From Desulfolithobacter dissulfuricans (GTDB taxonomy: Bacteria; Desulfobacterota; Desulfobulbia; Desulfobulbales; Desulfobulbaceae): a DNA stretch of 64,000 nt. Shown here in pieces: positions 9,426 through 26,360 of the stretch. The notes under the pieces are model-generated. The model was not told the origin of the DNA. It did not search any database and worked only from the letters and a program-made list of their open reading frames with translations. Both the position numbers and the translations under genes were made by a program. Positions within the stretch are counted from its first letter, which is position 1. Every line of letters begins with the position of its first letter. Where the stretch lies: positions 3,434,001 through 3,498,000 of the forward strand of contig NZ_AP024233.1 of the NCBI RefSeq assembly GCF_025998535.1, given 5' to 3'.

Positions 9426-10694
9426 ATGGTTGACGTCTGGTACAGCCTATATGATCGAATGCTGAGCCGGGAGAACCTGGTCAAGGCATTCTACAAGGTG
9501 AAATCCTCGAAAGGAGCTGCCGGTATAGACGGCCAGTCCATCGATGATTTTGCCGGATCACTTGCGACCAATATCGATCATCTCCTGACGGAACTGCAGG
9601 ACAAGAGCTACCAGCCGCTGGCCGTGCGACGGGTGGAGATCCCGAAGCCGAACGGCGGGAAACGGCTACTCGGCATACCTGCAGTCCGTGACCGTGTGGT
9701 ACAGCAGGCCCTGCTGGATATACTTCAACCAATATTTGACCGCGATTTCCATCCGTCGAGCTACGGCTACCGTCCTGGTCGGAGTTGTCACCAGGCAATC
9801 AGCAAAGCCACGATGTTCATCCGGACGTACGAGCGGAAATGGGTAGTGGACATGGATCTGTCGAAATGCTTCGACACGTTGAACCATGACCTGATCCTTG
9901 CCTCGTTCCGTCGCCGGGTCAGCGATGGAAGTATTCTTGGTCTGCTGGAGAAGTTTTTGAAAAGCGGTGTTCTGACAGGAGATGGTTGGCAGGCCAGCGA
10001 GGTCGGCAGTCCGCAGGGCGGAGTTATCAGCCCGTTGATTGCCAACGTATACCTTGATTCCTTCGATCAGTTTATGAAGAATCGTGGCCACCGCATCGTC
10101 CGCTATGCGGACGACATCCTGATCCTGTGCCAGTCAAAGAGCGCAGCCGAAAATGCACTGAACCAGGCCAGTCGTTATCTTGAAGAAGAACTGCTGTTGA
10201 CCGTCAACCAGGAAAAGACCCATATAAGCCACAGCCTCAAAGGGATTAAATTTCTTGGAGTTTGTATCCACTCCGTGATGACCCGAATACAGCGAGGCAA
10301 GGTGAGGGCCTTCAAGGCAAAGGTCAAGGCGATGACCCGGCGTAACTCCCCGGTGAACCTTGAGAAGGTGATAGCCGACCTCAACCGGTTGCTGAGGGGT
10401 TTTGCCAACTACTTTCGGATAGCGAACTGCAAGGGTGAGTTTTCTCGGCTGATGAGGTGGATCAGAAGACGGCTGCGTGCTGTTCAGTTGAAGCTGTGGA
10501 AAAAGCCGTGCAGGCTACACCGCAGACTGAGACAGCTGGGCTATAGAGGAGAGTTCAAAAGTATCAAGATGAACTCCTGGGCCAATGCAGCAAGTCCACT
10601 GAGCCATTATGCCCTTCCCAACAGCTGCCTGCATGGGGAAATGGGGCTCTTTGACCTCGCATCTGTACAGACCGGAATTTCTGTTTCAGTATGA
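9426..10694 (+). CDS. ltrA: Group II intron reverse transcriptase/maturase
   Basis: 422-aa intron-encoded protein. Reverse transcriptase fingers/palm blocks run from about residue 20 to 270: block with IPKPNGGKRLLGIP, then YGYRPGRSCHQA, VVDMDLSKCFDTLNH, SPQGGVISPLIANVYLD, and the catalytic RYADDILIL (YADD). The group II maturase-specific (X/thumb) domain follows (LNRLLRGFANYFRIANCKGEF). No HNH endonuclease domain is present, so mobility would rely on nicks or single-stranded DNA at forks. The protein appears complete, without frameshift. It lies wholly inside intron domain IV. Confidence 0.92.
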   Translation: MVDVWYSLYDRMLSRENLVKAFYKVKSSKGAAGIDGQSIDDFAGSLATNIDHLLTELQDKSYQPLAVRRVEIPKPNGGKRLLGIPAVRDRVVQQALLDILQPIFDRDFHPSSYGYRPGRSCHQAISKATMFIRTYERKWVVDMDLSKCFDTLNHDLILASFRRRVSDGSILGLLEKFLKSGVLTGDGWQASEVGSPQGGVISPLIANVYLDSFDQFMKNRGHRIVRYADDILILCQSKSAAENALNQASRYLEEELLLTVNQEKTHISHSLKGIKFLGVCIHSVMTRIQRGKVRAFKAKVKAMTRRNSPVNLEKVIADLNRLLRGFANYFRIANCKGEFSRLMRWIRRRLRAVQLKLWKKPCRLHRRLRQLGYRGEFKSIKMNSWANAASPLSHYALPNSCLHGEMGLFDLASVQTGISVSV

Positions 10695-12710: not shown

Positions 12711-13874
12711 TCAGTCGGCAAGGATGAATTTCTGATTCTTTACCTGGAGAATGACCATGGAGTCCACGTCGAGGCCGTTGTGATCCTCGGGGGTGATGTT
12801 GTATGTGCCCGAGACTCCAACATAACCGGTGGTATTCTCGATGGCGCGGCGCAGGGCCTTGGGATCGGTGCCGGCCTTTTTCATTGCATTGGCGACAATG
12901 GTGATCGCGTCCCAGGCATAGCCGGAATGGGTGTTGATGGGGAACTGTTTGTCGTAATGGTAGACGTCCCGGTACAGGTGGACAAAGTTTTTGATCACCG
13001 GTTTCTGGGGATCGGAGTCGGGCAGCTGGTCCACCACCATCAGCTTGGTGGCGGGCATCCTGTCGCCCTCCGAGGCCTTGCCGGCCAGCTCGATATACTT
13101 GGGATCAGGCAGGCCGTGGCACTGGAAGAGCGGCAGGTCGATGCCGAGCTGGACCTTGTTCTTGGCGACAATGGCCCCGGCCGGACCGATGGTCCAGCAG
13201 ATGATGGCCTGGGGTGCGGCGTTCTTGATCTTGGTCAGCTGGGCGGTCATGTCGGTATCCTTGGGGCCGAAGGACTCCTGGGCGACAATGGTCAATCCGT
13301 ACTCGGGAGCCAGCTTTTTCAGCCACCGGGCGCCGTCCTTACCGAAACCGTCCGCCGCCGTAAGGAGCGCCACCTTGGTCAGTCCCTTGTCCCGCAGGTA
13401 CATGTAGAGCCGCTTGACAGCGATGGAGGAGCGCTGGGGTGACTTGAAGACATAGGCATAGGAGCCGAACTTGCCGCCCATGATCACCGGATCGCCGCCT
13501 ACGGTCATGAAGGTGGGCATGCCCGCCTTTTCGACGATTTTCTTGATATTCATGCCACTGCCGGTACGGGTGGGTCCGACAATGGCTGCCACCTTGTCCT
13601 TGTAGATGAACTTTTTGGCAATGGAGGCGGCCTTGGCCGGGTTACCTTCGGTGTCGCCGATAACCAGCTCTATTTTTTTCCCGTTGACCCCGCCTTCCTT
13701 ATTGATCTTGTCCACCACCATCTCTGCCACCAGTTTGGTGGGGGTGCCGATGAAACTTGCCGGACCTGAAAGGTCAAAAAGCGCGCCCAGTTTGATGGTG
13801 TCTCCGGCAGATGCCGGCCCGGCCAGCAGAACGATCAGCAGGAACGCCGCGGCCTGGAAAATGGATCTGTACAT
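12711..13874 (-). CDS. livJ: Branched-chain/aromatic amino acid ABC transporter, periplasmic binding protein
   Basis: 387-aa solute-binding protein of the HAAT (LivJ-like) family. A signal peptide (residues 1-23, ending GPASA) precedes IKLGALFDLSGPASFIGTPT, the usual first strand. The type I periplasmic fold continues with VAAIVGPTRTGSG and YAYVFKSPQRSS. It is the last gene of the minus-strand liv/ior/paaK cluster, 121 bases after paaK. The partner genes metabolise arylpyruvates and arylacetates, so an aromatic or branched-chain amino acid, or the matching acid, is the likely ligand (inference). The ATG is preceded by AGGAGGGAAAC. Confidence 0.85.
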   Translation of the reverse strand: MYRSIFQAAAFLLIVLLAGPASAGDTIKLGALFDLSGPASFIGTPTKLVAEMVVDKINKEGGVNGKKIELVIGDTEGNPAKAASIAKKFIYKDKVAAIVGPTRTGSGMNIKKIVEKAGMPTFMTVGGDPVIMGGKFGSYAYVFKSPQRSSIAVKRLYMYLRDKGLTKVALLTAADGFGKDGARWLKKLAPEYGLTIVAQESFGPKDTDMTAQLTKIKNAAPQAIICWTIGPAGAIVAKNKVQLGIDLPLFQCHGLPDPKYIELAGKASEGDRMPATKLMVVDQLPDSDPQKPVIKNFVHLYRDVYHYDKQFPINTHSGYAWDAITIVANAMKKAGTDPKALRRAIENTTGYVGVSGTYNITPEDHNGLDVDSMVILQVKNQKFILAD

Positions 13875-13995: not shown

Positions 13996-15306
13996 TCAGA
14001 CAATATCATCCTTGATCCGGTTGTCAAAAATACGCTGGCTCTTGCGCTGGGAGCGGGGCAGGGAGCCGTAGTCCACGATCTCCACTTCCGTGGTGACCAG
14101 GAGCTGGCGTTTGATCTGGTGCACGGTCTCCTTCATCAGTTCCATGCGCCGCTCCGGGCCCACCCCTTCGCCCTGTTCGACGATCAGTTTCATGAAGTCC
14201 CGGCCACTGGCATCGTCCCGGGTCAGGTGGACCTGGTATTCCGAGCCCAGGCCCGGGATGCCGGAGAGAATGGCATCGATGCTGGAGGGGTAGATGTTGA
14301 CCCCGCGGAACTTCATCATGTCGTCACTGCGGCCCTTGATCCGTGAATGGCGGGGCAGGATGGAGCCGCAGCTGCAGCGGCCGGGGATGATCCGGGTGAT
14401 GTCCCGGGTCCGGTAGCGGATCAGTGGGGCAGCCTCCTTGCACAGGGTGGTGACTACCATCTCGCCCCATTCGCCGTCTTCCACCGGCTCCAGGGTGTCG
14501 GGGTCGAGGATTTCCAGGATGTAGTAGTCGGCCCAGTAGTGGATGCAGTCGTGCTCCGGGCATTCCATGCCGGTGCCCGGGCCGTAGAGTTCGGTCATAC
14601 CGGGGATGTCGAACAGTTCAGCCCCGCCAAAAAGCTCGGAGATCTTCTTGCGCATGGAGACCGACGAGCGCTCGGAACCGTAGATGACCTTCTGGATGTT
14701 GATCTTGTCGGCTATGCCCCGCTTGTGGATTTCCTCGGCCATGAGCAGGGCCATGGAGGCGGTGGAACAGAAGACCGTGGACTGGAAATCGAGCAGGAAC
14801 TGGCACTGCATGTCGATGTTGCCAGGCCCAACCGGTACGGCCATGGCCCCGATTTTTTCACAGCCCAGCTGAAAGCCCATACCAGCGGTCCAGACACCAT
14901 AGCCCACCGCGATCTGGACCCGGTCGAGCGGGGTGACCCCGGCCATCTCGTAGGCCCGGGCGAAAAAGGAGATCCAGTCGTCCACGTCCTTCTGGGTATA
15001 GGCCAGGACCTTGCGCTTGCCCGTGGTCCCGGAGCTGGCATGGATGCGGACGATCTGTTCAAAGGGGACCGAGCGCAGCGGGAAGGGATAGCCGTCTTTC
15101 AGGTCCTCGGCGGTGGTGAAGGGCAGCCGGCGCAGGTCGGCCAGACTGGTGATATCGCCTGGCCGGATACCGGCCTCCTCCAGCCGCGTGCGGTAGAAGC
15201 TCGAGCCGTTGAAGGCGTGGTTGACGGTCCACTGGAGGCCCCGGAGCTGGTGCTCCCTGAGTTCCTCCTCGGTGGTAAAGGATGGCATGAAGGATTGTGT
15301 ACTCAT
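13996..15306 (-). CDS. paaK: Phenylacetate-CoA ligase (internal start)
   Basis: 436-aa adenylate-forming enzyme that activates phenylacetate (or a related aryl acid) to its CoA thioester with ATP. The AMP-binding motif SSGTTGKRK is at residues 91-99, IYGSERSS and the PGMTELYGPG stretch follow, then the C-terminal domain with RGVNIYPSSID and the RCSCGSILPR segment. Its ATG at 15304-15306 has a GGAG site nine bases upstream, so it can be translated alone even though the livF frame runs into it. With iorAB upstream it could interconvert arylacetyl-CoA and free acid, yielding ATP in the fermentative direction (inference). Confidence 0.85.
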   Translation of the reverse strand: MSTQSFMPSFTTEEELREHQLRGLQWTVNHAFNGSSFYRTRLEEAGIRPGDITSLADLRRLPFTTAEDLKDGYPFPLRSVPFEQIVRIHASSGTTGKRKVLAYTQKDVDDWISFFARAYEMAGVTPLDRVQIAVGYGVWTAGMGFQLGCEKIGAMAVPVGPGNIDMQCQFLLDFQSTVFCSTASMALLMAEEIHKRGIADKINIQKVIYGSERSSVSMRKKISELFGGAELFDIPGMTELYGPGTGMECPEHDCIHYWADYYILEILDPDTLEPVEDGEWGEMVVTTLCKEAAPLIRYRTRDITRIIPGRCSCGSILPRHSRIKGRSDDMMKFRGVNIYPSSIDAILSGIPGLGSEYQVHLTRDDASGRDFMKLIVEQGEGVGPERRMELMKETVHQIKRQLLVTTEVEIVDYGSLPRSQRKSQRIFDNRIKDDIV

Positions 15307-16107
15307 ATCAGGTTTCTCCAGGCGTATATTGGTCAGTCCTGCCGCCCCGATCCGACTGGCCTCGGGCCGGTCCTCGCTGCCAGCCCCTAAAAAGGCCCTT
15401 CGCAGGCGGGAATCGGCCAGCAGCCGGTCGGAGTCACCCTGGTGGACAATCTTCCCGCCGGCCAGCAGGTAGGCCTTTTTCGAGGCTTCCAGGGCTCTGG
15501 CGGCGTTCTGTTCCACCAGCAGGATCGTGACCCCGGAACGGGACAGCTGGTGTATGGTGTCAAATATAATATCGGTGATCAGCGGGGCCAGCCCCAGGCT
15601 TGGCTCGTCCAGGAGCAGGACCCGTGGCCTGGCCATGAGCGCCCGGCCCATGGCCACCATCTGCTGCTCTCCCCCGGACAGGGTCCCGGCCTGCTGCTCG
15701 ATGCGTTCGGCCAGCCTGGGAAAGCGGCTGAGCACCTCCTCCATCCGGCGGTTTATCTCGCTGCGGCCAAGCTTCAGGGCCAGGACGCCCAGCTCCAGGT
15801 TTTCCCGTACGGTCAGGGTGCCGAACAGTTCCCGGCCCTCCGGCGACAGGGCCATACCCCGGCGGACCATGCCCACGGCCGAAGTCCGGGTCACATCCCG
15901 GCCGTCGAAGAGGATGGTTCCGCGGCTGGGACGGAGCAGGCCCATGATCGCCCGGAGCAGGGTGGTCTTTCCGGCCCCGTTGGCCCCCACCAAGGCCACG
16001 GTTTCCCCCTCCCGGACCTCCAGGTCAACACCGAACAGGGCCTGGGCCGCGCCGTAATGGACCTCCAGGTCGCTGACCCGGAGTATGGGGCTTGGTGCCT
16101 TGTTCAT
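13996..16107 (-). CDS. LivF ATPase continuous in frame with phenylacetate-CoA ligase
   Basis: One uninterrupted 703-codon frame. Residues 1-240 are LivF: Walker A GANGAGKT at 41-48, LSGGEQ at 143-148, Walker B LLLDEPS at 164-170. Residues 241-267 are a linker without family signature. Residue 268 onward is a complete phenylacetate-CoA ligase, listed separately. It overlaps livG by four bases (ATGA). Either this is a real fusion, or livF lost its stop: adding one base to the four-C run at 15384-15387 would put livF into a frame ending TGA at 15308-15310, one base before the ligase ATG. The linker codons look like normal coding sequence of this genome, mildly favouring the continuous reading. 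Confidence 0.7.
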   Translation of the reverse strand: MNKAPSPILRVSDLEVHYGAAQALFGVDLEVREGETVALVGANGAGKTTLLRAIMGLLRPSRGTILFDGRDVTRTSAVGMVRRGMALSPEGRELFGTLTVRENLELGVLALKLGRSEINRRMEEVLSRFPRLAERIEQQAGTLSGGEQQMVAMGRALMARPRVLLLDEPSLGLAPLITDIIFDTIHQLSRSGVTILLVEQNAARALEASKKAYLLAGGKIVHQGDSDRLLADSRLRRAFLGAGSEDRPEASRIGAAGLTNIRLEKPDMSTQSFMPSFTTEEELREHQLRGLQWTVNHAFNGSSFYRTRLEEAGIRPGDITSLADLRRLPFTTAEDLKDGYPFPLRSVPFEQIVRIHASSGTTGKRKVLAYTQKDVDDWISFFARAYEMAGVTPLDRVQIAVGYGVWTAGMGFQLGCEKIGAMAVPVGPGNIDMQCQFLLDFQSTVFCSTASMALLMAEEIHKRGIADKINIQKVIYGSERSSVSMRKKISELFGGAELFDIPGMTELYGPGTGMECPEHDCIHYWADYYILEILDPDTLEPVEDGEWGEMVVTTLCKEAAPLIRYRTRDITRIIPGRCSCGSILPRHSRIKGRSDDMMKFRGVNIYPSSIDAILSGIPGLGSEYQVHLTRDDASGRDFMKLIVEQGEGVGPERRMELMKETVHQIKRQLLVTTEVEIVDYGSLPRSQRKSQRIFDNRIKDDIV

Positions 16108-16877
16108 GCCGCCCTGCCTGTTGTGCCGAGATACGCTTCCAGGACCAGGGGATTGGTCCGGACCTCTTGCGGGGTGGAGCGGGCGATACAGCGGCCGGAG
16201 TCCAGGACCACCACGTGATCCGATATCCGCATCACCAGTTCCATGTCGTGTTCCACCAGCAGCATGGTGAAGCCGGCCTGGCGCATCTGCTTGAGCAGGA
16301 CCGCGATCCGCCCGGTTTCCTCCTGGTTGAGCCCGGCCACCGGCTCGTCCAGGAGGACCAGATCCGGCTCCGAGACAAAGGCCCGGGCCATTTCCACCTT
16401 TTTCCGGTCCCCGTAGGGCAGGACTGAGATGGGCCAGTCTGCCCGGCCGGAAAGCCCGAACCGGTCCAGCATCTCCAGGGCCCGGAGGCGGAAGAGTCGT
16501 TCCCGGCTGCGGAGCGACGGCAACCGGAGCATGGCACCGGTGAACGAGCTGGAGGCCTGGACCGTCAGGCCGCAGAGGATGTTGTCCAGTACCGACATGG
16601 TGGGCAGGATTCGCAGGTTCTGGAAGGTTCTGGCAATGCCCTGGCGGGCGATGACGTGTGGCTCCAGCCCGGCAATATTTTTTTTCTGTCTGTCGCCGAA
16701 CAAAATTTCTCCGTCATCGGGTGGGATCACCCCGGTGATGCAGTTGATCAGGGTGGATTTTCCCGCGCCGTTGGGGCCGATGAGGGCGGTTATGGTCCCC
16801 TTTTTCACCGAAAAAGAGACCTTGTCCAGGGCGGGCAGGCCGCCGAACCGTTTACTGACCTTGTTCAGGGAGAGCAT
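16104..16877 (-). CDS. livG: Branched-chain amino acid ABC transporter ATPase LivG
   Basis: 257-aa cytoplasmic ATPase. Walker A GPNGAGKS at about 33-40, an ABC signature region that reads LPYGDRKKVEMARA in place of the usual LSYGQQR, Walker B LVLLDEPVAGLN, and the switch His in LLVEHDM. The C-terminal PLVLEAYLG is the standard LivG end. It overlaps livM by 26 bases and livF by four, so the three are translationally coupled. Confidence 0.9.
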   Translation of the reverse strand: MLSLNKVSKRFGGLPALDKVSFSVKKGTITALIGPNGAGKSTLINCITGVIPPDDGEILFGDRQKKNIAGLEPHVIARQGIARTFQNLRILPTMSVLDNILCGLTVQASSSFTGAMLRLPSLRSRERLFRLRALEMLDRFGLSGRADWPISVLPYGDRKKVEMARAFVSEPDLVLLDEPVAGLNQEETGRIAVLLKQMRQAGFTMLLVEHDMELVMRISDHVVVLDSGRCIARSTPQEVRTNPLVLEAYLGTTGRAA

Positions 16878-17886
16878 CTTGTCGTACTTCCTGCGCCTCT
16901 GTCCGGGCCCGTTTGAGCGCCAGGCGGGTCATGATGATGTCCTTGATCCCGGTGACAAAACCCCGCGGCAAAAAGAGCAGGATCAGGACCAGGATCAGGC
17001 CGTGGATAATATCCCGATAGGTCTCGAATATATCGAGAAACTCGGGGAGAATGGTCAGCAGTCCGGCCCCCAGCAGGCTGCCCCAGATGGAGCCCATGCC
17101 GCCGACCACCACCATGATGACGAAATCCACCGAAGCAAAGATACCAAAGGTATCTGGATTGACAAAGGAAAAGCAGTGGGCATAGAGGCTGCCGGCCAGC
17201 GAGGCGAAGACCGCAGAAAGGACAAACACCTTGATCTTGCTCTTTTTGATATCCACCCCCAGGACCGAGGCGGCCCGCTCGTCGGCGGCCAGGGCGGCCA
17301 GGCCACGTCCCACGCCGCTGCGCACCAGGTTGAGACACAGGGTGCAGAGAACCAGGGCAAAGCCCCAGACCACATAATGGAACCGGACCTCGTCGTCCAG
17401 TTCCAGGCCGAAAATCGACAGCGGTGGAATACCGGCAAAGCCCGACGGACCGCCGGTGACCTCGTCCCACTGGACCAGGACCGTGTAGATGACGATGTTG
17501 AATCCCAGGGTGGCCATGGCCAGGTAGTGGCCGGAAAGGCGCAGGACCGGCAACCCGATCACCAGTGTCACCAGGGCCACGCCCAGGGCTGTCAGACCCA
17601 TGGCCAGCCAGGGCCAGATACCGAAGTAGACCGTGAGCAGGGCCGAGCCATAGGCCCCGAGGCCGAAAAAGGCGGCATGGCCAAGCGATATCTGGCCGGC
17701 ATAGCCGATGAACAGGTTCAACCCCAGGACCACGATCACGTTGATGGCCACCATGTTGGTGAGCCCCAGGATATAGGGGTTGTCCTGGACCAGGGGAAAC
17801 AGGGCCAGGACCAGGGTCAGGATCCAGACCAGCAGTCCGGTGCGGTGCAACCGGAGAAAGTATGTCATCCGGTCACGGCGGCTCAT
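16852..17886 (-). CDS. livM: Branched-chain amino acid ABC transporter permease LivM
   Basis: 344-aa inner-membrane permease with about ten membrane segments. Family signatures include GYAGQISLGHAAFFGLGAYG near residue 60 and the EAA-like cytoplasmic loop ERAASVLGVDIKKSKIKVFVLSA. The C-terminus extends past the last helix with a charged tail. The start ATG overlaps the iorB stop by one base (TGATG), and its end overlaps livG. It pairs with LivH from the head of the cluster. Confidence 0.9.
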   Translation of the reverse strand: MSRRDRMTYFLRLHRTGLLVWILTLVLALFPLVQDNPYILGLTNMVAINVIVVLGLNLFIGYAGQISLGHAAFFGLGAYGSALLTVYFGIWPWLAMGLTALGVALVTLVIGLPVLRLSGHYLAMATLGFNIVIYTVLVQWDEVTGGPSGFAGIPPLSIFGLELDDEVRFHYVVWGFALVLCTLCLNLVRSGVGRGLAALAADERAASVLGVDIKKSKIKVFVLSAVFASLAGSLYAHCFSFVNPDTFGIFASVDFVIMVVVGGMGSIWGSLLGAGLLTILPEFLDIFETYRDIIHGLILVLILLFLPRGFVTGIKDIIMTRLALKRARTEAQEVRQDALPEQGQ

Positions 17887-18386
17887 CAGGCGTCAAGTCC
17901 CCGGCGAAAGGCCTTGAGGTTGTTTTCCACGAACCGCTCCGGAGAGATGGTTTCAATGGCGCGTTCCACCTGCTGCGGGCTGCAGAAGAAGAGCGATTTG
18001 CCCACCCCGTAGCCGAGCAGGATCAGGTTGGCCAGTACCGGTGAGCCCATCTCCGTGGCCATGGCCGTGGCGTCGAGATGGTACCAGGGTCCTTTTTCCG
18101 GGGTGTTGACCAGGACCCGGGCGTCGAGCCGCAGCAGGTGGCCGTGAACCGGCAGGTTCTGCGGGTGGAGAAAGATACCCACATCACCCTGGCCGCTGCG
18201 GATCAGCGGGCTGTGGAACCGGCCCACCTTGACGGTGGAGATAACCGAGCCGCCACGCTGGGCCATGCCGTGGGTTTCCGAGGTGAAGATTTCAAGGCCC
18301 ATGTCCACGCCGGCTCCGGCGATGATCCGGGTGAGGAACAGCACCCCCTGGCCGCCCATGCCGCTGACAATGATCTGCTGTTTCAC
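17886..18386 (-). CDS. iorB: Indolepyruvate ferredoxin oxidoreductase, beta subunit
   Basis: 166-aa gamma-type subunit of the 2-oxoacid:ferredoxin oxidoreductase family. The N-terminus IIVSGMGGQGVLFLTRIIAGA is the standard motif, followed by SETHGMAQRGGSVISTVKVG. With IorA it oxidises arylpyruvates to aryl-acetyl-CoA, reducing ferredoxin. I use the GTG at 18384-18386: it has a strong AAAGGAGG site, overlaps the iorA stop (GTGA), and removes 13 unlikely N-terminal residues that an upstream ATG would add. Confidence 0.9.
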   Translation of the reverse strand: MKQQIIVSGMGGQGVLFLTRIIAGAGVDMGLEIFTSETHGMAQRGGSVISTVKVGRFHSPLIRSGQGDVGIFLHPQNLPVHGHLLRLDARVLVNTPEKGPWYHLDATAMATEMGSPVLANLILLGYGVGKSLFFCSPQQVERAIETISPERFVENNLKAFRRGLDA

Positions 18387-20230
18387 TTGGCGCCTCCTTT
18401 TCTGACAATGGAGCCGGTGGGGCACACGGTTTCACAGACTCCGCATTCCACGCAGAGTACCTGGTCGATGTGTGCCTGTTTCTCCTTCTCGTCCAGGGTG
18501 ATGGCCGGACATTCAAACTGCTGGACGCAGATCCCGCAGCCCACGCAGTCATCGAGGATTTCCATGGGAATGCGTTCCTGTCTGGCCGGGTTTTTACGGT
18601 CCATGAGACAGGGATGGCGGGCGATCACCACCGCCACTCCCCCTTTTTCGGAGCGTATGAAACTGTCCGCCTCCCGGAGCAGGGTGGAAAATCCTTCCAG
18701 GTCATAGGGGTCGCCGATCTTGAGAAAACCCACCCCGCAGGCCCGGACAATATCCTCGATGACCACCCGGTTACCCGGCGAGCCGTCGGCCAGGACCCCG
18801 TGCTGCGGGGTGGGCTGCTGGCCGGTCATGGCCGTGGTGGAGTTGTCGAGGATGGTGACGATGATCCGCGCCTTCTGGACCACGGCATTGATCAGGGCCG
18901 GGATGCCGGCGTGGAAGAAAGTGGAATCACCGATGGTGACCACTATGGTGGGAAAGTCGTCCCCGTCCTGGGCGTGGGCATGGTAGAAACCGGCCCCCTG
19001 GCTGATGCAGGCTCCCATGCAGTGGCAGGTGTCCACCGCTCCCAGGTTCATACCCAGGGTGTAGCAGCCGATGTCGCTTGGGTAGATGCCCTTGGGAAAG
19101 GTTTTCTTGATGGCGTAGAACGAGGCCCGGTGCGGGCAGCCGGGGCAGAGAGAGGGGCGCCGTCCCCGGGCCGGCGGATTCTGCTGCAGGCCGCCGTTTT
19201 TCTTCTTCTCCGGCAGGTCCAGGAAGTCGAGTAAAATGGTGTGGAGCACGTCCGGGGTCAGCTCTCCCTGACCCGGCACATGGCCGGTGAGACGGCCGAG
19301 AATGTTTTTGTCTTTTCCCTGGAGCTGCAGTTCGATGACCGCATCGGGTTCTTCCAGGACAAGGATTTTTTCATGATCCCGGGCCAGGTTGCGGGCAAAA
19401 TCCCGGGGAAGGGGAAAGGGCATCCTCACCTGGTAGAGATCCACCCGATCGCCAAGGCCCATCTCTTCCAGCAGGTCCGAGACATTGGCATGGGCGATGC
19501 CCGAAGCGACAATGCAGCATTCGGCCCGGCCCGGCCCGGTGGCCGTCGGCTGGAAGCGCTCTTCACCACTGATCCGATGGAGCTTGTCGTTGAGCTCCCC
19601 ATGGAGCCCGGTGAGGAAGGCCGGAGTGGCTACCCAGCGGCCCGGATTTTTTTCAAAGACCGCCTTGCGCTCCAGGTCCTGGACCGGCCGCAGGTCGACG
19701 TTCTGGCGCGAGTGACAGATCCGGGTGGTGGGTCGCAGCACCACCGGGATCTCGTAACGTTCGGAAAGCTCCAGGGCCTCGGTCACCATGTCCCGGGCCT
19801 CGGCCGGGGAGGCCGGATCGAGCACCGGGGCCTTGGCAAACAGGCAGAAGAGGCGGGTGTCCTGCTCGGTCTGCGAGCTGTGCGGGCCGGGATCGTCGGC
19901 CACCACCACCACGAAGCCGCCCTTGACCCCGAGATAGGTTGAGCGGGTAAAGGGATCGGCGGCCACGTTCAGGCCCACCTGCTTCATGATCACGGCGGCT
20001 CGTTTGCCGGTATAGCTGGCGGCCAGGGCCGATTCGAAGGCTACCTTTTCGTTGACCGACCATTCCACATGCATGGGGCTGCCGGCCTCATCCATGCTGG
20101 TGGTCACCGCACCTAAAATTTCCGAGGAAGGGGTCCCGGGATAGGCCGAGACAAAGGTGCATCCGGCTTCCACAAGTCCCCGGCCGATGGCCTCGTTACC
20201 CATGAGGAGTTGTTGTTTCATTGCGTTCAC
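18383..20230 (-). CDS. iorA: Indolepyruvate ferredoxin oxidoreductase, alpha subunit
   Basis: 615-aa TPP enzyme. The N-terminal pyrimidine-binding domain starts GNEAIGRGLVEAGCTFVSAYPGTPSSEI; the TPP/Mg region carries GDSTFFHAGIPALINAV and LDNSTTAMTGQQ. The last 55 residues form a ferredoxin domain with two [4Fe-4S] motifs (CVGCGICVQQFECP and CVECGVCETVCP). In archaea and anaerobic bacteria this enzyme completes oxidative degradation of aromatic amino acids. It lies between livH and iorB in the transporter operon, tying uptake to ferredoxin reduction. The start is MNAMKQ at 20230; the ATG four codons in is an alternative. Confidence 0.92.
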   Translation of the reverse strand: MNAMKQQLLMGNEAIGRGLVEAGCTFVSAYPGTPSSEILGAVTTSMDEAGSPMHVEWSVNEKVAFESALAASYTGKRAAVIMKQVGLNVAADPFTRSTYLGVKGGFVVVVADDPGPHSSQTEQDTRLFCLFAKAPVLDPASPAEARDMVTEALELSERYEIPVVLRPTTRICHSRQNVDLRPVQDLERKAVFEKNPGRWVATPAFLTGLHGELNDKLHRISGEERFQPTATGPGRAECCIVASGIAHANVSDLLEEMGLGDRVDLYQVRMPFPLPRDFARNLARDHEKILVLEEPDAVIELQLQGKDKNILGRLTGHVPGQGELTPDVLHTILLDFLDLPEKKKNGGLQQNPPARGRRPSLCPGCPHRASFYAIKKTFPKGIYPSDIGCYTLGMNLGAVDTCHCMGACISQGAGFYHAHAQDGDDFPTIVVTIGDSTFFHAGIPALINAVVQKARIIVTILDNSTTAMTGQQPTPQHGVLADGSPGNRVVIEDIVRACGVGFLKIGDPYDLEGFSTLLREADSFIRSEKGGVAVVIARHPCLMDRKNPARQERIPMEILDDCVGCGICVQQFECPAITLDEKEKQAHIDQVLCVECGVCETVCPTGSIVRKGGAK

Positions 20231-20362: not shown

Positions 20363-21226
20363 TTATTTCAACAGCCCCCGGGGCCGGATAAAGAGCACCA
20401 GCAGGAGCACGATAAAGGCGACCACGTCCTTGTAGGCGCTGCTGAGGTAGCCGGCGGTGAGGGATTCCAGGAGTCCCAGTCCCAGGCCGCCGACAATGGC
20501 GCCGGGAAAAGAGCCGAATCCGCCGAGGATCGCCCCGGCAAAGCCCTTGAGGCCCAGCAGGACCCCGACGTCATAGTTGAGAGTGGTTATCGGGGTCACC
20601 AGGACTCCGGCCAGCCCGCCCAGGGCTCCGGCCAGCCCGAAGCTGAACATCTTGACCTGGCCGATATGCAGGCCCACCGCGGCGGCGGCCCGCTCGTTGG
20701 AGGCAACTCCGCGCATGGCCAGGCCGATCCGGGTCCGGCGGAAGAGAAGGACCAGCAGACCGATGGCCACGGTGGTCAGGGCCAGGATCCACAGGGCCTG
20801 GGGCATGATTGTGGCCCCGAAGAAATGCAGAGGGGTCTCGCCGGACAGGGGGGGAACCGCCATCCGGTTTTTTCCCCAGACAAGTTTTATGATCCCGCGC
20901 AGGATAATGGAGATACCGATGGTAAGGAAGATCAGGACCAGGTGGTGATCCGAGCGTGATGGCCGGATCCCGATCCGTTCCACCAGCATGGCCACCCCCG
21001 TGACGCTGGCGGTGGCGAAGAGTACCGCCGCGGGCATGGGCAGGCCCAGGGTAAACAGGCCGGTGAAGAGAAACATGCCGCCCAGGGTGACAAAGTCCAC
21101 CTGGACGAAATTGACAATGCCCATGGTGTTGTGCACCACGCAGAATCCCAGGGCGATGAGCGAATAGATCGCACCGCTGGTCAGTCCGGAAAAGATAAAT
21201 TGGAGCAGATCCTGGAAGATATTCAC
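20363..21226 (-). CDS. livH: Branched-chain amino acid ABC transporter permease LivH
   Basis: 287-aa inner-membrane permease with about eight helices; signatures GLTSGAIYSLIALGFCVVHNTMGIVNF at the N-terminus, RGVASNERAAAAVGLHIGQVKMFSF in the cytoplasmic loop and GLKGFAGAILGGFGSFPGAIVGG. First gene of the cluster. A 132-base gap separates it from iorA, where a secondary promoter is possible but none is obvious. The promoter should lie upstream, close to the palindromic element at 21262. Confidence 0.9.
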   Translation of the reverse strand: MNIFQDLLQFIFSGLTSGAIYSLIALGFCVVHNTMGIVNFVQVDFVTLGGMFLFTGLFTLGLPMPAAVLFATASVTGVAMLVERIGIRPSRSDHHLVLIFLTIGISIILRGIIKLVWGKNRMAVPPLSGETPLHFFGATIMPQALWILALTTVAIGLLVLLFRRTRIGLAMRGVASNERAAAAVGLHIGQVKMFSFGLAGALGGLAGVLVTPITTLNYDVGVLLGLKGFAGAILGGFGSFPGAIVGGLGLGLLESLTAGYLSSAYKDVVAFIVLLLVLFIRPRGLLK

Positions 21227-23341: not shown

Positions 23342-24745
23342 CTAAAGACTGCCGATGGCCGCCTCGGCAAGCTCCAGCACTCCGCCGGGCAACAGGCCGA
23401 GAAAGAGCAGCAGCAGGGCCAGGGCCAGGGCCAGGGACCGGATGTGGGACGGGGGGGCCAGGGGGACCGGGTCCGTGCTGCTCACCAGGCTGATCTTGAT
23501 AACTTTGAGGTAATAGAACATCCCGATCAGGGTATTGATCACTGCGGCGAAAACCGGCCAGAAATAGCCAGCCTTCCACACCGCGGTGAGCAGCAGCAGC
23601 TTGCCGGTGAATCCGGCCGTGGGCGGCAGGCCGGCCAGGGAGATGAAGGTGATGACCAGCATGATGGCCAGGACCGGGGAGCGGTGCCAGAGCCCGGCCA
23701 GGTTGTCCAGCGGGATGTCGTGTTCGTCACCGGCCACCTGTATGGCCACCAGGAAGGCGGCCAGGGTCATGAAGGTGTAGACCGTGCCGTAGAAGAGCGA
23801 GGCGGTGAGCCCACCGTCGGCCGGGGCCAGCAGGCCAAGCAGGATGTAACCGGCGTGGGAGACCGCCGAGTAGGCCAGCAGCCGCTTGAGCTCTGTCTGG
23901 GTCAGGGCCATGAGGTTGCCCATGGTCATGGAAAGGATGGCCAGAATGGTCAGGACCGGAGTCAGTCCTTCCATGTCCATGAACAGGGAGACCACCCGGA
24001 CCAGCAGGGCCACGGCGGCCAGCTTGGGCAGGGCGGCGATGTAGGCCACCACCTCGGCCGCGCTGCCGGCGTACACATCCGGGGCCCAGAAATGGAAGGG
24101 GAAGGCCGAAAGTTTGTATAACAGCCCGGCCATGAACAGAATCACCCCGAGCACAGCCATGGGATCGTGCAGGTGCGTGGGGATGGCCGGAATGATGTCG
24201 GCGAGAAAGGTGGAACCGAAGGCACCGTACAGATAGGTGATCCCGTAGAGCATGAAGGCGGTGGACACGGCGCCGAATATCATGTACTTGGCCACGGATT
24301 CGAACTGATAGCCCAGTCCCTTGCGGTAGGAGGCGACGATGAACAGGGGGTAGGAGGAGATTTCCAGGCCGATGAACAGCGTCAGCAGCTCGGTGGCCCC
24401 GGTAACCAGCAGCAACCCCAGGGTCGAGATCGAGATGAAGAAGTAGAATTCACCGGTCTTCTGGTCGTCGGTCTGGCGGAGGCGGCCGCCGATGACGCAG
24501 GCCAGGAGGTAGGCCACGCAGATGAGCAGGCTGAAGAAACGGCTGAACCCGTCCACGGTAAAGGCACCGTGGAAGAAGATGTACTTGTGCTTCAGGCCGA
24601 TCAGGGAGGCGAGCACGGCGACCCCGCCGAAGCCCATGGCCCAGCGTTGCAGATTTTTGCGGTCAAGGAGCGAGCTGATGAAGAAGAAAATCGCCGCGGT
24701 GCTGATAACGATTTCTGGCAGGATACCGTTGAACATGGTTGTCAT
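23342..24745 (-). CDS. nuoN: Complex I subunit N, antiporter-like
   Basis: 467-aa membrane subunit of complex I with about 14 helices and the Proton_antipo_M core: LLTLFIGLEISSYPLFI carries the conserved Glu of helix 5, AGLLYKLSAFPFHFWAPDVYAG the broken-helix region with the key Lys, and KRLLAYSAVSHAGYILLG the central Lys/His segment. Last gene of the nuo operon. It takes part in proton (or sodium) translocation next to NuoM and NuoK. Confidence 0.92.
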   Translation of the reverse strand: MTTMFNGILPEIVISTAAIFFFISSLLDRKNLQRWAMGFGGVAVLASLIGLKHKYIFFHGAFTVDGFSRFFSLLICVAYLLACVIGGRLRQTDDQKTGEFYFFISISTLGLLLVTGATELLTLFIGLEISSYPLFIVASYRKGLGYQFESVAKYMIFGAVSTAFMLYGITYLYGAFGSTFLADIIPAIPTHLHDPMAVLGVILFMAGLLYKLSAFPFHFWAPDVYAGSAAEVVAYIAALPKLAAVALLVRVVSLFMDMEGLTPVLTILAILSMTMGNLMALTQTELKRLLAYSAVSHAGYILLGLLAPADGGLTASLFYGTVYTFMTLAAFLVAIQVAGDEHDIPLDNLAGLWHRSPVLAIMLVITFISLAGLPPTAGFTGKLLLLTAVWKAGYFWPVFAAVINTLIGMFYYLKVIKISLVSSTDPVPLAPPSHIRSLALALALLLLFLGLLPGGVLELAEAAIGSL

Positions 24746-24809
24746 CCTCTTGATATGATCATCAGGCCGCCTGATGGTCCGGGCGGCCTTCGGTGCTGTG
24801 GTTGCGCTC

Positions 24810-26360
24810 TCAGTTCAGAAACCCCGGGGGCAGAGCCTGGCCGATGAAGGCCGAAAGGTCCATCACCGTCTGCCCATGGAGCCTGGCGCTGATGGACTCC
24901 AGGGCCGGGTTCATGATTTTCAGCAGGGGGGCGGGATACAGGCCGAATACAATGACGAGAATGGCCAGGGGCAGCAGGCTGGCCAACTCCCTCAACCCGA
25001 TGTCCCGGGCCAGGGCCGGATCGCCCCCTCGCCCCCAGGTCAGTTTGATGAACATCCTGAACATGTAGGCCGCGGCCAGCAGCGCCCCGGGGATGACCCA
25101 GGCCCCGAGGCGCAGGCTGTGGCTGAAGGCGCCGCTTAAGCAGAGAAACTCGCCCACAAAGCTGGCCGTGCCGGGAAAGGCCAGCGACGAGAGGGAAAAC
25201 AGGCCCAGGAAAAAGACAAACCCGGGCATCAGCCTGGCCAGGCCGGCGTTGTCGGCAAGCTCCCGGGAGTGGGTCCGTTCGTAAAGCATCCCGACCAGGA
25301 GAAAGAGGCCGCCGGTGGTCAGGCCGTGGTTGAGCATCTGCAGCATGGCGCCCTGGAAGCCCTGCATGTTGAGGACCCCGATTCCCAGGGTGACAAATCC
25401 CATGTGGGCCACCGACGAGTAGGCGATCAGCTTCTTGATGTCCTGCTGGGCCAGGGAGAGCAGGCCGCCGTAGAGGATGGCCGCCACCGAGAGCACGATC
25501 AGCACCGGTGCCAGGCTGACGCTGGCGGCCGGGGTCAGGGTCAGGTTGAAGCGCAGTAGTCCGTAGGTCCCCATCTTCAGGAGTACGCTGGCCAGGATCA
25601 CCGAGCCGGCGGTGGGCGCCTCCACGTGGGCTGCGGGCAGCCAGGTGTGCAGCGGCACCATGGGAATTTTGACCGCGAAGCCAACCAGGAATGCGAGAAA
25701 GAGCCAGAACTCCCAGCGGGGCGCCAAGTCGAGACCGAGCAGGGCCGGGTAGCTGAAGGTACCGCCATGGATGTAGAGCCCGACAATGGCCAGGAGGAGG
25801 AAGATCGAGCCGCCCAGGGTGTAGAGAACGAATTTGATGGCCGCGTACATCCTCCGGGGGCCACCCCAGATGGCGATGATAAGGAACATGGGGATCAGCA
25901 TGGCCTCCCAGAAGAAGTAGAACAGCACCAGGTCGAGCGCCACGAACACCCCGGTGAGGATACCCTGGGTCAGAAGCAGGCAGGCCATGAATTCCCGCAC
26001 CCTTTTGTTGATGTAGCGCCAGGAACAGAGCACGGTGGACGGGCCGAGGAAGGTGGTCAGCAGGACCAGCGGCAGGCTGATTCCGTCGACCCCCAGGAGG
26101 TAGCTCAGGCCAAGTTGCCTGATCCAGACATGGTTTTCGACAAACTGGAATCCCGGCAGCTCCGGCTGGAAGGCTGAATAGAGCGGCAGGGAGACCAGGA
26201 AGGTCAGGCTAAGGATGATCAGGGCCAGCCAGCGGCTCATCTCGTCGCTCCTGATGAGAAAAAGCAGGAAGGCGCCGATGATGGGCAGAAAGATGATCAG
26301 GCTCAGGTAGGGACCATCCAGGGGTGAGGGGTGGAGTATGGCAAGTGGACTCATGGGCAT
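24810..26360 (-). CDS. nuoM: Complex I subunit M, antiporter-like
   Basis: 516-aa membrane subunit. Characteristic features are LLGVDGISLPLVLLT, FYFFWEAMLIPMFLIIAIWGG (conserved Glu), FAVKIPMVPLHTWLPAAHVEAPTAGSVILA (Lys and the broken helix) and KKLIAYSSVAHMGFVTLG. It is a clear NuoM rather than Mrp type. Sits 16 bases after the NuoL-like gene and 64 bases before nuoN. Confidence 0.93.
   Translation of the reverse strand: MPMSPLAILHPSPLDGPYLSLIIFLPIIGAFLLFLIRSDEMSRWLALIILSLTFLVSLPLYSAFQPELPGFQFVENHVWIRQLGLSYLLGVDGISLPLVLLTTFLGPSTVLCSWRYINKRVREFMACLLLTQGILTGVFVALDLVLFYFFWEAMLIPMFLIIAIWGGPRRMYAAIKFVLYTLGGSIFLLLAIVGLYIHGGTFSYPALLGLDLAPRWEFWLFLAFLVGFAVKIPMVPLHTWLPAAHVEAPTAGSVILASVLLKMGTYGLLRFNLTLTPAASVSLAPVLIVLSVAAILYGGLLSLAQQDIKKLIAYSSVAHMGFVTLGIGVLNMQGFQGAMLQMLNHGLTTGGLFLLVGMLYERTHSRELADNAGLARLMPGFVFFLGLFSLSSLAFPGTASFVGEFLCLSGAFSHSLRLGAWVIPGALLAAAYMFRMFIKLTWGRGGDPALARDIGLRELASLLPLAILVIVFGLYPAPLLKIMNPALESISARLHGQTVMDLSAFIGQALPPGFLN

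Follow-up and report, generated by a model that had tools for sequence, protein, structure and literature searches.

Background

A Liv importer contains one LivF and one LivG. In vectorial acylation, which involves FadD and the FATP proteins, a ligase acts together with a diffusion or channel route. PaaK enzymes are dimers that are held together mainly by their N-terminal domains (PMC9493321), while the cas8 and cas10 genes give Cas11 from a nested in-frame start (PMC11899642). In the locus described here, a LivF-type ATPase and a PaaK-type ligase are encoded by a single open reading frame within an operon for an ABC importer. No earlier description of a LivF-PaaK fusion was found in literature searches, which covered open-licence papers. 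The window, that is, the whole stretch of DNA that was analysed, is 64,000 nucleotides long. A first-pass annotation had reported that livF and paaK share one continuous frame and had treated the fusion and a separate start for PaaK as alternatives.

The fused gene and its operon

The livF-paaK open reading frame (13996..16107) is read on the minus strand from an ATG at 16107 and runs through 703 codons with no internal stop. Pfam matched ABC_tran at residues 26-170 (119 bits), AMP-binding at 346-553 and AMP-binding_C_2 at 602-697, and NCBIfam matched LivF over 8-241 and PaaK over 280-697. The continuous frame with two complete domains claimed by the first-pass annotation was thus borne out, and fused homologues were found in relatives.

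The LivF ATPase domain (residues 1-236; 15400..16107) has an intact Walker A, signature and Walker B. The nucleotide-binding motifs G41-K47, S144-Q148 and D167-P169 were invariant in 41 sequences, as expected of a HAAT-family ABC ATPase. Against NF008626, the E. coli-type LivF equivalog, the LivF half scored 247.6 bits, below the cut-off of 441, so that it is LivF-like, and the match does not mean that branched-chain amino acids are the cargo. The ligase part (residues 268-703; 13996..15306) matched PF00501 and PF14535 above their cut-offs, which places it among the PaaK-like adenylate-forming ligases, and it aligned with PDB 4r1l_A full length over residues 277-697, including the region of the C-terminal catalytic lysine. 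The score against the PaaK equivalog TIGR02155 was 390 bits with a cut-off of 646.3. Since both halves miss their equivalog cut-offs, the substrate is not to be called phenylacetate on such evidence. Of the original name, phenylacetate-CoA ligase, the complete PaaK-type ligase stands; the half is best described as a predicted PaaK-like acyl-CoA ligase whose substrate is not necessarily phenylacetate.

The gene order is livH-iorA-iorB-livM-livG-[livF-paaK]-livK, all on the minus strand, and the same order is kept in relatives. The operon comprises the livH permease (20363..21226), iorA for the alpha subunit of indolepyruvate:ferredoxin oxidoreductase (18383..20230; TIGR03336, 648 bits against a cut-off of 650.9), iorB for the beta subunit (17886..18425), the livM permease (16852..17886), livG for the second ATPase of the importer (16104..16877), the 3' end of which overlaps the livF start, and a livK-type periplasmic binding protein (12711..13874) that is also supported by synteny in relatives. 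All except iorA were assigned with both Pfam and NCBIfam. The livF part is therefore encoded together with livG, livH, livM and livK, as in the HAAT family, and no second livF besides the fusion was found in the minus-strand livH to livK run of the window. Downstream of the operon, an open reading frame at 9426-10694 on the plus strand resembles, by eye, a group II intron reverse transcriptase/maturase, and upstream, at 23342-26360 on the minus strand, there are two adjacent membrane subunits like those of antiporters or NADH:quinone oxidoreductase (PF00361).

Distribution and evolution of the fusion

A scan of GTDB genomes gave 20 loci with whole or partial fusion architecture, and the complete ones were free of stops across LivF, linker and PaaK. 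The named isolates with the fusion are Malonomonas rubra DSM 5091, Desulfuromusa kysingii DSM 7343 and Geothermobacter hydrogeniphilus HR-1; family code f84 is probably Geothermobacteraceae, judging from near-identity to G. hydrogeniphilus sequences. Tallied over the genome searches, full-length, stop-free fusions occur in about 63 genomes that belong to 13 family codes of the phylum. The window's own family contributes 2 (of 74 genomes), a phylum-wide sample of 395 a further 15, the class of genome G335 (277 genomes) a further 42, and family f10 another 4. Some of these fusions lie on single-contig chromosomes (G000, G495, G496 and G559), and the linker was retained throughout an alignment of 55 distinct fused sequences. 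The architecture of about 700 residues that the first-pass annotation had proposed to look for in relatives is thus shared by dozens of related bacteria, and the fused livF-paaK gene is real, old and conserved.

Two sets of candidates were rejected. Pairs of LivF and ligase in Rhodobacteraceae (L054-L082) looked fused by their span but had intervening stops and a distant ligase, and the same-family pairs L090-L098 (41-45% identity) were separate genes of a paralogous operon. One fusion-carrying genome, G000, has in a second region (C1:392813-400644; L002-L004) two unfused PaaK-like genes and a separate livF, and in this it resembles an operon often seen in its family.

In the PaaK tree, all fused PaaK halves formed one clade (SH-aLRT 100) within which the unfused lineages f121 and f108 were nested, while the placement of the unfused group f72/f91 is unsettled. 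The fused LivF halves likewise formed one clade (SH-aLRT 98), in which the few rows marked as unfused were damaged or truncated fusions. Unfused operons in which livF adjoins paaK lay outside the fused clade (e.g. L133/L183 and L146/L184). Read most simply, an ancestral livF-paaK pair underwent a single fusion, and the join was broken again on at least two later occasions. In the window's family, most genomes have no fusion but a different, unfused operon (41-45% identity), which would fit the acquisition of the window's copy by transfer.

The unfused lineages are informative about the ligase. In the f121 genomes, iorA-iorB-paaK persists although liv genes are absent from its neighbourhood. 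PaaK can therefore do without the transporter, and PaaK and IorAB look like the metabolic core with the transporter as an optional partner. In G462, livF has been lost, and the Shine-Dalgarno site, the ATG and a 79% identical PaaK are retained. Before the standalone PaaK of this genome (L177:7500-7900) there is a remnant of the linker, LTN followed by RLEKPHM in frames one base apart, which we read as the fossil of a lost fusion.

A probable internal start for free PaaK

The first-pass annotation had pointed out that PaaK has its own ATG with a GGAG site, and both were located, ATG268 at 15306-15304 and the GGAG core at 15319-15316 (minus strand). The Shine-Dalgarno site upstream of Met268, TGGAGAAA, has a spacer of 9 nt between GGAG and ATG and takes in codons 264-265 (GAG AAA). 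Synonymous constraint was scanned in all 459 scorable codon columns of 43 non-redundant sequences. Codon 264 came out at the top and codon 265 in third place, and of all 7-codon windows 259-265 scored best; many of the other top columns were serines, the score of which is inflated by the two codon blocks of that amino acid. Glu264 is encoded by GAG in 94% of the sequences, compared with a median of 55% across the remaining conserved Glu columns, Lys265 by AAA in 89% (median 32%) and Leu263 by a G-ending codon in 95% (median 64%). A start-type codon is present at position 268 in 54 of the 55 fused sequences (49 ATG, 4 TTG and 1 ATG shifted by an indel), although the flanking residues are variable. 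The fused sequences are kin, so that neither the start nor the codon counts represent independent events.

The pairing strength of the Shine-Dalgarno site, tried as evidence by itself, was not decisive because the encoded residues already favour pairing: synonymous recodings pair with the anti-Shine-Dalgarno sequence equally well in 40% of cases on average, and the site of any one sequence is not unusual. Met150 and Met550 are also preceded by Shine-Dalgarno-like sequence, but neither place falls within the most constrained columns, and it is therefore the constraint and not the motif itself that counts as evidence. RNA folding around the internal start showed nothing unusual (z near 0).

These observations must be weighed against the alternative that the fusion is the sole product and that the internal Shine-Dalgarno site and its ATG are left over from an ancestral, separate paaK. 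Unfused relatives such as L133 do have the ancestral paaK start at the same place. Moreover, the internal site is weak or absent in 12 of the 55 sequences (GGTG, GGAA, CGAG and similar), the f10 subgroup shows TTG or GGTG variants, with TTG replacing ATG268 in four f10-type sequences, and the fusion of G352 (L132/L185) has lost both the site and the start, with no start codon near residue 268. However, relics would be expected to decay, yet codons 264-265 rank in the top three columns of the gene for synonymous constraint and the start codon survives nearly everywhere amid its variable neighbours. We consider this alternative rather unlikely. With the exception of G352, a ribosome-binding site and start that are conserved and under selection at the nucleotide level were found, as expected of a nested start. 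About 5 kb upstream of the liv operon of G352 (L185:3-2426) there are two standalone PaaK genes, one of which is cut by the edge.

Consequently, of the two alternatives that had been set against each other, the fusion is real and the PaaK start with its GGAG is conserved, but they are not mutually exclusive. Since the ATG and GGAG are conserved as well as the fusion, the locus probably makes both the fusion and free PaaK. If the nested start is true, one gene supplies tethered and free copies of the enzyme.

The linker and a possible coupling of uptake to activation

The linker, residues 248-266 (15310..15366, minus strand; consensus PxASRLGAAGLTNIRLEKP), is conserved more strongly than any other part of the protein in the 55 distinct fused sequences. 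The mean entropy was 0.22 bits for residues 250-266, compared with 0.83 for LivF and 0.55 for PaaK, and 85% of the pairwise codon differences in residues 248-266 were synonymous, compared with 57% and 65% in the two enzymes. The conservation of the linker, together with codon change that is mostly synonymous, indicates that the fused frame is translated and selected, in agreement with the earlier impression that the linker codons are genuine, and a misread intergenic stretch is thereby rejected. A linker more conserved than either enzyme points to an additional function. In a mediocre AlphaFold model of the fusion, the pLDDT of the linker was below 50, and thus the model shows no domain contact or interface.

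The reading that we favour, with a probability of about 0.6, is that one gene has two products, an importer-tethered LivF-PaaK and a free PaaK, and that uptake, CoA trapping and IorAB are linked. Translation from the first ATG would give the fusion. As this is the only LivF of the operon, the importer assembled from the operon's own subunits would have a PaaK-type ligase attached on the cytoplasmic side. Free PaaK would come from initiation at codon 268, served by the internal Shine-Dalgarno site, as suggested by the selection at the nucleotide level and the one lineage without livF. The acid taken up by the importer would probably be an aryl acid; the tethered ligase would trap it as a CoA thioester, and IorAB, from the same operon, would interconvert the aryl-CoA and an arylpyruvate with ferredoxin. 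IorAB could supply amino acid synthesis with arylpyruvate, or the pathway could operate in reverse, a direction proposed for the fermentation of aromatic amino acids in another organism (PMC5817080). Given that PaaK is dimeric and there is a single LivF per importer, the free PaaK may partner the tethered copy, although its role as dimer partner is speculative. A more specific version, in which the ligase is built into one ATPase of the ABC importer, the nested-start PaaK dimerises with it and import and CoA trapping constitute one membrane complex, is offered tentatively and is doubtful as a whole. Coupling of uptake and activation as such is plausible from the architecture and the operon. 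That so many families have retained a natural fusion is good evidence for joint action of acid uptake and CoA activation, and the locus makes it possible to test whether thioesterification lets an ABC importer trap its cargo.

It could be argued that the fusion merely co-expresses two proteins at a fixed ratio, the ligase being tethered without coupling or cut off by a protease after synthesis. The lack of a predicted interface in the AlphaFold model, the f121 ligase that works with iorAB in the absence of liv genes, and the separate or unlinked livF and paaK of most relatives in the wider group are in keeping with this explanation. However, the near-invariance of the linker over 13 families indicates a role beyond that of a spacer, and two genes with their own stop and start would be co-expressed anyway, which makes mere co-expression improbable. 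Finally, one additional C in the CCCC at 15384-15387 would, as the first-pass annotation had noted, shift livF into a stop just before ATG268, but the idea that a missing base, through sequencing error or in a pseudogene, makes two genes look like one can be discarded with near certainty, because the same stop-free frame and linker recur in about 63 genomes and 55 distinct sequences, which excludes error or chance, and a shift of frame would abolish the best conserved segment, whose codon differences are largely synonymous.

Comparison with known systems

The locus resembles the LivFGHMK-type (HAAT) ABC importers in that the five subunits are encoded in one operon and the LivF motifs are intact, but here LivF bears a second enzyme at its C-terminus and iorAB lies inside the transporter operon. 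The ligase half matches PaaK (PDB 4r1l, 2y4o and 2y27) full length over residues 277-697, with the catalytic lysine region aligned, but it is tethered to an ABC ATPase and falls below the PaaK equivalog cut-off. As in vectorial acylation by FadD and FATP, the formation of a CoA thioester would drive or trap uptake, whereas here the ligase would be a covalent part of an ABC importer. The arrangement is also like that of cas8/cas10 and Cas11, where a single frame yields a long protein and, by initiation within it, a second, C-terminal one. In the present case, however, the internal start is predicted from sequence, and the frame encodes two complete enzymes of different families.
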